A stretch of 64,000 nucleotides of DNA, from the NCBI GenBank assembly GCA_903884505.1, contig CAISET010000002.1:124001-188000 (forward strand), in the 5' to 3' direction. Origin of the DNA: an uncultured Microcaldota archaeon (GTDB lineage: Archaea; Micrarchaeota; Micrarchaeia; Burarchaeales; Fermentimicrarchaeaceae). The number at the start of each line of letters is the position of its first letter. Position 1 is the stretch's first letter. The notes under the pieces are model-generated. The model was not told the DNA's origin, made no database searches, and saw only the letters and a program-made list of their open reading frames with translations. Below are positions 52,858 through 56,159 of this stretch, piece by piece. A program made the translations under genes and the position numbers.

Positions 52858-52963
52858 TAGCGGGGCGTGGATTTGAACCACGGATCTCTGGGTTATGAGC
52901 CCAGCGGGCACTCCAAGCTACCCTTAGGGCACTCGGTCATCATCAACCGAATGCTACCCCGCT
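52858..52963 (-). tRNA. Initiator tRNA-Met(CAT) with 31-nt intron at about 9/10, intron about 52924-52954
   Basis: Acceptor AGCGGGG/CCCCGCT; anticodon arm CTGGG-CTCATAA-CCCAG; T-arm CGTGG-TTCAAAT-CCACG; intron GCATTCGGTTGATGATGACCGAGTGCCCTAA with TA^G / AA^G junctions. Confidence 0.88.
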
Positions 52964-53817
52964 GTAGATAGGAGTAATCCAGGCAGTTCAGTTACACAGC
53001 ACACATTTATATCGTTTCCCAGCGCTTTCTGATACTGCTGGAGCATAGCCTGGCTTGTGACAACGATGAACCTTGCACTCGGCAAGCGGCGCCTCAGCGC
53101 CGCAAATTTGCGTTTTAAGGTCAAAGATTTCGGCCCAGGCTTGTCCCAAATAGTCGCTTCAATCAAAACGTCGCCTTTCAGGGCGAAATCAACAGACACG
53201 AACCCGTTCATGTTATTTGCGGGGAAACGCTTCTCATACTCATATTCCAAGCTCAAGGATTGCAAAACCGCTGCGACGCGGGCTTCAAGGCGATTATACA
53301 TCCTCTCGCCATTCGGGCCGACTGTCTTTCTGCCAGTGCGGCGAAGGCCCTTAAGCGACCAACTTGTGCGCTTAGCCACAAGTTTCGGATCATGAATGCC
53401 CAACTTCTTCCTAAAGACTTCTTGGCCACCCTCCGCACACTTGCGGCGCCAGGCTTCGGAAAAAGCAGGCTCCCTCATCAAAGATCTTATCTTTGCAACG
53501 CCAACTTTCGACGCCCGGCGTGTTTTAGAGCGCCATGTTCGTTTGAACCCAGCATCCAACATTCTCTTCCGGATGCTCCTGCTGACTGTCCGCTTCATTG
53601 CAGTGCAGTACTTTGCATAGTCACCTGGCGACCGTTCAAGGCGCCGGAACATCCTAAACCCACCATTCCGCCGTGCGAGCTGCAGGTATCCTGTTTTGCC
53701 AAGGCGGTCCATAAGGATTCCGCGTACGTGACTCGTATCTAATCCCGTTACCTGCCCAATCTCATCAAGAGTCATGTGCGAATCGCGGAAGAGTGATACG
53801 ATGCGTTTCCTGCCCAA
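52954..53817 (-). CDS. HTH plus putative PD-(D/E)XK-like nuclease, possibly homing-endonuclease-like
   Basis: HTH MTLDEIGQVTGLDTSHVRGIL; C-term NRLEARVAAVLQSLSLEYEYEKRFP...FVSVDFALKGDVLIEATIWDKPGPKSLTLKRKFAALRRRLPSARFIVVTSQ; TTG start. Confidence 0.6.
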   Translation of the reverse strand: MGRKRIVSLFRDSHMTLDEIGQVTGLDTSHVRGILMDRLGKTGYLQLARRNGGFRMFRRLERSPGDYAKYCTAMKRTVSRSIRKRMLDAGFKRTWRSKTRRASKVGVAKIRSLMREPAFSEAWRRKCAEGGQEVFRKKLGIHDPKLVAKRTSWSLKGLRRTGRKTVGPNGERMYNRLEARVAAVLQSLSLEYEYEKRFPANNMNGFVSVDFALKGDVLIEATIWDKPGPKSLTLKRKFAALRRRLPSARFIVVTSQAMLQQYQKALGNDINVCCVTELPGLLLSTAG

Positions 53818-53834
53818 AGCTACCCTACCCCGCT
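53817..53834 (-). other. Intron-less 18-nt copy of the tRNA-iMet 5' end
   Basis: AGCGGGGTAGGGTAGCTT equals the spliced 5' 18 nt of the 52858-52963 tRNA; TATA-like CTTTTTAAAG about 30 nt upstream. Confidence 0.85.
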
Positions 53835-53854
53835 ATGTGGGCAATAGTTTCGTC

Positions 53855-54757
53855 TTACTTCTTTAAAAAGTCGACGACGGGCCTTGCATTGAAGCCGAGG
53901 CTCAAGCTGGAAAGCTCCTTCTTCCCCACCCATCTCGCCGAGGTGTGCTCCCTGCTCAGCCTCAGCTTCCCTCCGACGGCCTTCCCTGAAAACACGATAT
54001 AGACGGCATGCTTGAGCTTCCCGCCCTTCTCATAGACTGCGCTCGTCGTCCCGAGCACTTTCCCTACGGCAACCTTCAGTCCGCACTCCTCTTCGCACTC
54101 CCTGCGCGCCGCCTGCTGCGGCGATTCCCCCCATTCAATCGCCCCGCCGGGAAACTCCCATATTTTAGGCGATTTTCGCTTGAGGACCAAATATTTCCCG
54201 CCCTTCTCGACAGCAACCATCGCATCAAAGTCCCGGACCGTCTCAAGTTTTCCTCCAGCCATGCCTTCAACTTCTCGCATGAGCTTTAAAATCCGCTTGT
54301 AGGCAGGGCTGTTGCCGCCGGCATAGCCGTGCATCCGCAATATCTTCCCACTATCAGACACCTTATCCGCGTAGCATACAATCTTCTCCTCAATGCTGTG
54401 CGGGATACTGTCCTTCGAAGGCAGCCCCAATGCCCCCGCCTCCCCGGCAGTCAGCCCTCCGAGAAAATGCGTTTCGGCAAATCGCGCAACCTTTTCCGGC
54501 ACGCCCTCCTTCCTCAGCATCTCAGCCCCTTTGCTGCAGTGCGCCGGGCCGTGCGTTGCAGCCCTCCCAACGTCATGGAGCAGCGCCCCAGCCTCAACAA
54601 GCCCCAAATCGACCCGTTTTCCTCTCGCAGCAACCCTTCTTGCAACTGCGAGCGCTATCTCCTTAACGTTCTCAGAATGGAGCCGCACGCCTTCTGGGAC
54701 GTCTAATTTTCTCAGAACAAGGGCAGTGTCAACAGCGCTACTTCTTCGCGTCGACAT
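53855..54757 (-). CDS. HD-domain hydrolase fused to Nudix hydrolase
   Basis: HSENVKEIALAVARRV...GALLHDVGRAATHG; Nudix box GGAIEWGESPQQAARRECEEECGL. Confidence 0.9.
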   Translation of the reverse strand: MSTRRSSAVDTALVLRKLDVPEGVRLHSENVKEIALAVARRVAARGKRVDLGLVEAGALLHDVGRAATHGPAHCSKGAEMLRKEGVPEKVARFAETHFLGGLTAGEAGALGLPSKDSIPHSIEEKIVCYADKVSDSGKILRMHGYAGGNSPAYKRILKLMREVEGMAGGKLETVRDFDAMVAVEKGGKYLVLKRKSPKIWEFPGGAIEWGESPQQAARRECEEECGLKVAVGKVLGTTSAVYEKGGKLKHAVYIVFSGKAVGGKLRLSREHTSARWVGKKELSSLSLGFNARPVVDFLKK

Positions 54758-55981: not shown

Positions 55982-56159
55982 GGGCCCGTAGCTCAGCTTG
56001 GTAGAGCGACTGGCTCTTAGCCCTTTTCGGTGTCGCCGGCTTCGCCGGACGCTCCAGCGCTTCGCGCTGTCGCTCGACATCCGAAAAGCGCTAGCGGAAA
56101 ACGCTGGCGCAAAGGGAAGAGCAACCAGTATGTCAGGGGTTCGAATCCCCTCGGGCCCG
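55982..56159 (+). tRNA. tRNA-Lys(CTT) with 104-nt intron at 37/38, intron about 56020-56123
   Basis: Acceptor GGGCCCG/CGGGCCC; exon arms ACTGG-CTCTTA / A-CCAGT; CTCT/AGAG central helix with TA^G and CA^A bulges. Confidence 0.93.

Follow-up and report, generated by a model that had tools for sequence, protein, structure and literature searches.

The locus studied here lies on the minus strand of a 64,000-nt stretch of DNA from an uncultured Microcaldota archaeon (the window), where a putative nuclease gene runs directly into an intron-bearing gene for the initiator tRNA, tRNA-iMet(CAU) (Table 1). Upstream of both stand a TATA-like element, which falls within the 3′ end of a NUDIX-like gene, and an exact copy of the tRNA 5′ end. 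The parts interlock closely: the TTG start of the nuclease gene begins at 53817, the last base of that 18-nt copy, and its stop codon TAG is made of tRNA U8, A9 and the first nucleotide of the intron, so that ORF and tRNA overlap by 10 nt. The coordinates and order of these features, as set out in an earlier note on this DNA, were all confirmed to the base.

Table 1. Features of the tRNA-iMet locus in the window, with the basis of each assignment.
Feature	Position	Strand	Details and basis
TATA-like CTTTTTAAAG, original tRNA-iMet promoter element, now 5′ of the nuclease gene	53861..53870	-	Comparison with G003
Exact copy of intron-less tRNA-iMet nt 1-18, AGCGGGGTAGGGTAGCTT	53817..53834	-	Above shuffles; aligns with the G003 empty site
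Predicted nuclease gene	52957..53817, stop codon 52956-52954	-	864 nt with stop, TTG start, 287 aa
TATAAA inside the 3′ end of the nuclease gene	53006..53011	-	About 45 nt before the tRNA; candidate internal tRNA promoter
tRNA-iMet(CAU) gene, split after nt 9	52858..52963	-	Direct reading, Rfam
tRNA-iMet parts	nt 1-9 = 52963-52955; 31-nt insert = 52954-52924; nt 10 onward = 52923-52858	-
31-nt intron at tRNA position 9/10	52924..52954	-	Direct reading, pairing test, folding

Rfam matches the tRNA from the D arm on, and ARAGORN at default settings missed the gene. It is the sole iMet gene in the 1.5-Mb assembly (99.8 bits versus 40.7 for the next best candidate) and must therefore be functional. 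At the place equivalent to the TATAAA of the window (53011-53006), direct reading found GATATTAA/GATATAA-like codons in several nuclease homologues; related AT-rich codons recur in the homologues and in a nuclease remnant of genome G009, so the end of the nuclease gene may serve as a tRNA promoter. Elsewhere in the window, a second intron-bearing tRNA gene, tRNA-Lys(CUU) at 55982-56159 (+), has an anticodon-loop insert of about 106 nt.

A predicted PD-(D/E)XK-type nuclease

The model and family alignment identify the 287-aa protein as a predicted PD-(D/E)XK-type nuclease with an N-terminal HTH. The AlphaFold2 model, built on an eight-row alignment (pLDDT 84, pTM 0.53), comprises an N-terminal HTH, a helical middle and a C-terminal domain of catalytic type, whose core follows the order H-E-E-E-H-E (H176-187, E192-199, E206-213, E217-221, H227-244, E249-254). 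Residues E178, D210 and E220, which are invariant in all eight homologues, place an E/D/E set of acids in helix 1, strand 2 and strand 3 of this alpha-beta core, as expected for the superfamily. The usual lysine is absent, with ExT (E220-x-T222) standing in place of ExK in 8/8 homologues; the PD-(D/E)XK superfamily tolerates substitutions at this position. The top PDB fold match of the model is the homing endonuclease I-Bth0305I, with a probability of 0.98 and a TM of 0.63 on the target but an E value of 0.053. Furthermore, a profile search with the family hit T7 endonuclease I (Pfam Phage_endo_I) at E 0.0013, aligning E178, D210 and E220 with the catalytic E, D and E of that enzyme. The HTH and the C-terminal D...ExT nuclease-like core that the earlier note had read from the letters, and the PD-(D/E)XK homology for which it had suggested a check, are supported by the model, the invariant acidic residues and the profile match.

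The identification came from the family profile and the fold search only: sequence searches of the single window protein against Pfam, PHROGs and the PDB returned nothing above threshold, and sequence matches of the family to known endonucleases are weak. Viral fold matches of the model include endonuclease I-like, Holliday-junction resolvase-like and DUF559 proteins. Peptide-pattern scans of genome contigs and viral contigs found no nuclease relatives, nor did tblastn of phage and plasmid records.

Linkage of the nuclease family to a tRNA intron

Homologues were sought in 118 relatives and then in 303 genomes of the class, which in this set is the whole phylum (named contigs say Micrarchaeota). 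Eight full or near-full homologues were recovered (G000, which is the window, and G023, G042, G070, G083, G089, G131 and G135, that of G089 truncated by a contig end); they are drawn from six families, with 35-44% identity to the window protein. In all eight cases tRNA-iMet follows directly downstream in the same orientation, and without exception the tRNA gene is split by a short intron after nt 9. The nuclease-tRNA-intron arrangement is not an assembly artefact, since it occurs in eight independent assemblies. In four homologues (the window, G023, G042 and G131) the stop codon consists of U8, A9 and intron nt 1, with the last two residues of the protein, Ala-Gly, encoded by the start of the tRNA. 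The free-standing ORF of the window lies 5′ of its 31-nt intron and touches the first base only. The G135 gene stops about 14 nt before the tRNA, next to a leader like that of empty sites, which indicates that the inserted segment differs between loci. The eight-row nuclease tree is poorly supported and too weak for judging horizontal transfer.

We surveyed introns with a covariance model of iMet exon 2, which matched in 286 of the 303 genomes, and read about 150 loci. The 9/10 intron stands without the nuclease in 11 genomes (G002, G005, G008, G009, G013, G045, G053, G085, G108, G142 and G143), some 134 relatives have neither, and the nuclease family was never found beside an intron-less iMet gene among the loci read. 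The co-occurrence (8/8 versus 11 intron-bearing and about 134 intron-less loci free of the nuclease) has a hypergeometric P of about 1e-8, a figure that is too optimistic because it ignores shared ancestry. Presence and absence of nuclease and intron both occur within genera g27, g32 and g35 and within the window's own family. A pattern-based scan across 85,462 named species yielded 18 intron-bearing iMet genes of the 9/10 kind, all from archaea or uncultured-archaeon records and most labelled Micrarchaeota, and added four intron-only loci (L178, L183, L184 and L188).

Two further sequences are not known to lie at iMet. One is a distant relative in G129 (L015, G129:C1; 271 aa, E 2e-11) that corresponds to the C-terminal domain only, weakly matches Phage_endo_I and lies away from tRNA-iMet; G129 is itself the empty-site sister of an occupied genome. 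The other, in G155, is a stretch of 49 residues at the end of a contig.

Empty and occupied sites in sister genomes

Both kinds of site that an inserting element should leave among sister genomes, a comparison suggested in the earlier note, were found. The clearest empty site is that of G003, from the window's own family, which keeps the neighbours, the TATA box and the leader and has neither nuclease nor intron. Its flanks are 86% (upstream) and 88% (downstream) identical to those of the window, its TATA box has nearly the same sequence in the same place, and its tRNA-iMet is identical except that the intron is absent. The window allele is thus the G003 allele plus 902 bp after tRNA nt 18. 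Occupied/empty pairs with conserved neighbours were also found in g27 (G131/G129), g32 (G042/G073, G039) and g35 (G135/G136). The flanks of G131 and G129 are 79% identical on both sides, and in G131 the native leader of about 100 bp was replaced together with the insertion. Weaker comparisons are provided by G070 against f12 relatives (by tblastx) and by G023 against its own family f9, on the downstream side only.

The upstream copy AGCGGGGTAGGGTAGCTT scores 18, whereas 40 shufflings of the 1150 nt upstream gave no score above 8.5. Such a copy exceeds shuffles only in the window (L001, 18 nt) and in G023 (L005, 14 nt with one mismatch) and is absent in the other six homologues, and we rejected it as a constant component of the element. 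It is probably a scar left at the junction, where the upstream end of the broken target gene was kept. From the 18 and 14 nt kept in the window and G023 we infer a cut near or 3′ of nt 14-18, with the 5′ side closed by end-joining and the 3′ side by homology within the tRNA. Because AGCGGGGTAGGGTAGCTT is intact in the occupied allele, the 18-mer cannot be the whole target, which must extend past nt 18. The earlier note had proposed an element that targets the intron-less site and carries a resistant, intron-split copy; that proposal is strongly supported, but the exact 18-mer does not stand as the whole target.

Predicted relaxed splicing motifs in the 9/10 introns

The 9/10 introns, which are 14-42 nt long, look like relaxed bulge-helix-bulge (BHB) introns in their predicted pairing. 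In the folded window intron, exon G4-G7 pairs with intron CCCU, an internal hairpin forms between CAUUCGG and CCGAGUG, and a 3-nt bulge presents UA|G. The 4-bp helix between exon nt 4-7 and the last part of the intron is complete in 19 of 24 homologous introns, versus 1.5 expected from shuffling. Where the exon reads GAGG rather than GGGG, the intron partner changes to match (CCTT, CTTC) and the pairing is kept. Similarly, intron-internal hairpins have a mean of 6.1 bp versus 2.0 expected. The folds share a 5′ splice-site bulge of 3 nt (or 2 nt), UA|G or UA|A, with the 3′ side open.

The outer exon-exon helix of a BHB motif does not form in the folds, and predicted splicing therefore depends on a tolerant endonuclease. 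The splicing endonuclease of Micrarchaeum accepts relaxed motifs (PMC12397907), and a 396-aa reading frame of the window genome has two domains of the tRNA splicing endonuclease type. Across the window and six loci, Rfam gave tRNA matches only and no group I or II intron. Separately, a further insert unrelated to the 9/10 intron occupies the anticodon arm of iMet or its vicinity at L092-L094, L096-L098, L121 and L122.

Probable decay and replacement at the same tRNA

Several loci contain what look like later stages. The G042 nuclease gene has an in-frame stop in the HTH. G009 has kept the intron together with a C-terminal nuclease remnant, DINVLTPKELRHAIC, in the 90 nt between the NUDIX gene and the tRNA; this remnant scores 22.75, versus 9.4 for the best of 124 intron-less controls. 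In G005 the leaders of two intron-bearing iMet copies have in common a stretch similar to the C-terminal end of the nuclease; as remnants these stretches are suggestive only, that of L073 scoring 9.25, within the control range. The two iMet-like genes of G005 (L061, L073) have related 9/10 introns, and one of them, mutated in its anticodon loop, is possibly a pseudogene; the pair may come from a mixture of populations or from a locus that was duplicated and is decaying. Most of the 11 intron-only genomes contain no clear nuclease remnant, and some introns may therefore have arisen without the nuclease.

In G142 and G143, LAGLIDADG genes with Pfam matches above cut-off stand at iMet in the nuclease's stead, and the two proteins are dissimilar (25% identical). 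In genus g35, introns that resemble one another (ACAAATTC...GAATTTGCCCT and close variants) adjoin three distinct endonuclease genes, one of the PD-(D/E)XK family in G135 and those for LAGLIDADG proteins in G142 and G143. LAGLIDADG genes directly upstream of tRNA-iMet were seen in three species of one genus (L094, L095 and L096, corresponding to G140, G142 and G143), with the 9/10 intron in two of the three. G140 has a related LAGLIDADG gene, no 9/10 intron and another intron in the anticodon arm. For this reason we dropped the LAGLIDADG genes as a second clean case of linkage; their association with the intron is not exclusive and is weaker than that of the main family.

Discussion

The earlier note took the locus for a homing or insertion element, an idea now carried by the empty and occupied sites, the intron linkage in 8/8 homologues and the conserved nuclease core. 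Our preferred reading, to which we assign a probability of about 80%, is that a free-standing endonuclease gene and an adjacent short BHB-type tRNA intron together form a small homing unit, a scheme termed collaborative homing. The endonuclease would most likely cut the intron-less tRNA-iMet gene within its 5′ third, and the break would be repaired from an occupied copy, so that nuclease gene, first exon and intron would be copied together. By splitting the target after nt 9 the intron would destroy it, and the occupied gene could then no longer be cut; the tRNA splicing endonuclease would remove the intron from the RNA, so that the essential tRNA would still work. In the window, the upstream side would have been closed by probable end-joining at tRNA nt 18, leaving the 18-nt copy and putting the nuclease frame, its start now TTG, under the old tRNA promoter, while the downstream side would have been joined by homology within the tRNA.

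The intron may instead have come first, as a host defence against integration or cleavage at tRNA-iMet, with nuclease genes settling later beside genes that were already protected. Intron-only genomes do outnumber nuclease-bearing ones (11 versus 8, plus the four named genomes), clear remnants are missing from most of them, and protection by tRNA introns was proposed by Randau and Soll, in the form in which PMC3293823 cites it. We nonetheless judge this order of events unlikely: among the loci read the nuclease family never adjoins an intron-less iMet, the occupied/empty pair nearest to the window differs by nuclease and intron together, and G009 has lost the nuclease and kept the intron.

An integrase-type element, such as a virus or plasmid remnant, could have integrated at an attachment site in the 5′ end of tRNA-iMet and restored the tRNA with an intron-bearing copy that it brought along. 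The repeated 5′ fragment, inserted gene and rebuilt intron-bearing tRNA do match the layout described for Caldiarchaeum tRNA-Thr (Sugahara et al. 2012, PMC3293823). However, the sole large ORF of the 902-bp insert encodes the PD-(D/E)XK-type nuclease with no recombinase match in Pfam up to E 10, the 5′ repeat is absent from most homologues, and no relative turned up in the phage and plasmid records or viral contigs searched, which together make such an origin quite improbable. We regard as more doubtful still a domesticated nuclease or regulator, acting on the expression or RNA of tRNA-iMet and no homing enzyme. Strict linkage to one tRNA gene and the likely shared transcript in the window would suit that role, but the patchy distribution within genera, the decay, the nonsense copy of G042 and the replacement by LAGLIDADG genes are more in keeping with a selfish gene. 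Least probable of all is a giant intron of about 902 nt, raised in the earlier note, in which nt 1-18 at 53834-53817, an exact exon with the original tRNA promoter, would be spliced to nt 19 onward with removal of the ORF and the second 5′ exon; the copy is missing from the other six homologues, which nevertheless have their own short 9/10 intron, most with the expected splicing helix, no relative that was read has an 18/19 intron, and Rfam finds no group I or II intron.

Why archaeal tRNA genes acquire introns at non-canonical positions has long been asked, and direct evidence for the leading proposal, that they protect against integrating elements, has so far been scarce. At this one locus, many species together present the intron, a nuclease that could plausibly impose the pressure, the unprotected ancestral gene and decayed leftovers, and with all stages in one place the protection proposal becomes a simple cleavage test. 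The association of nuclease and intron suggests a selfish gene pair, of which some introns of archaeal tRNAs would be the protective half. The chances seem to us even that non-canonical archaeal tRNA introns can be parts or scars of DNA-level selfish units, in which a nuclease spreads a tiny protein-spliced intron that serves solely to mask the target of that nuclease, unrelated nucleases (PD-(D/E)XK type, LAGLIDADG) succeed each other at the protected tRNA, and intron-only genes are the leftovers. If true, nuclease plus BHB intron would form a distinct class of mobile element and would provide an origin for tRNA introns at odd positions. Collaborative homing, known from phages, would also come to include an essential tRNA gene of archaea whose intron is spliced by protein. 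In the open-licence papers searched, we found no report of collaborative homing for an archaeal tRNA or protein-spliced intron, nor one linking an endonuclease gene with an archaeal tRNA intron; given that scope, novelty is provisional.

Comparison with known systems

Each known system shares some features with the locus described here. T7 endonuclease I has an acidic triad that aligns with E178, D210 and E220, but it is a Holliday-junction resolvase and not a homing enzyme, with ExK where the present family has ExT, and it has no HTH. The LAGLIDADG endonucleases of archaeal rRNA introns and inteins are likewise archaeal endonucleases tied to introns, and members occur in the same tRNA-iMet neighbourhood in G142 and G143; they usually lie inside the intron or intein, and their catalytic fold is unrelated. 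I-Bth0305I, an EDxHD homing endonuclease, belongs to a phage group I intron; it is the best PDB fold match of the predicted model, at an E value of just 0.05.

The group I intron of I-Ssp6803I lies in a cyanobacterial tRNA-fMet gene, so that an initiator tRNA gene is the target there and the predicted target here. I-Ssp6803I is a PD-(D/E)XK homing endonuclease (PMC3943268), and the restriction-like nuclease fold is common to both; unlike the present protein, that enzyme is encoded inside the group I intron, and neither single-protein nor family-profile searches found a sequence match to it. Integrase elements of the SSV/pNOB8 type have a site-specific recombinase gene in the insert, whereas none was matched here (Pfam up to E 10). 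The tRNA-Thr locus of Caldiarchaeum subterraneum is similar in its direct repeat of a tRNA 5′ fragment, the gene inserted beside a rebuilt tRNA and the intron gained with the element (PMC3293823). There, a putative recombinase of a plasmid-like element is associated with a 24/25 intron in one population; in contrast, the present locus has a nuclease family, a 9/10 intron, several families and empty sites.

The earlier note recognised no established mechanism for a standalone nuclease tied to an archaeal tRNA intron, which holds for archaea in so far as we found no such report, but the closest scheme, collaborative homing, has been described in phages (PMC10448857). There, a free-standing endonuclease lies beside the gene whose intron it spreads, and endonuclease turnover, one replacing another, has been suggested as the source of such pairs (PMC10448857). 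As in phages, the endonuclease gene is outside but adjoining the intron, the pair co-occurs, and the intron presumably interrupts the site that is cut. Unlike the intron-containing phage genes, the host of the pair described here is a chromosomal archaeal initiator tRNA gene, and its partner is an intron of 14-42 nt of the tRNA-splicing-endonuclease kind.
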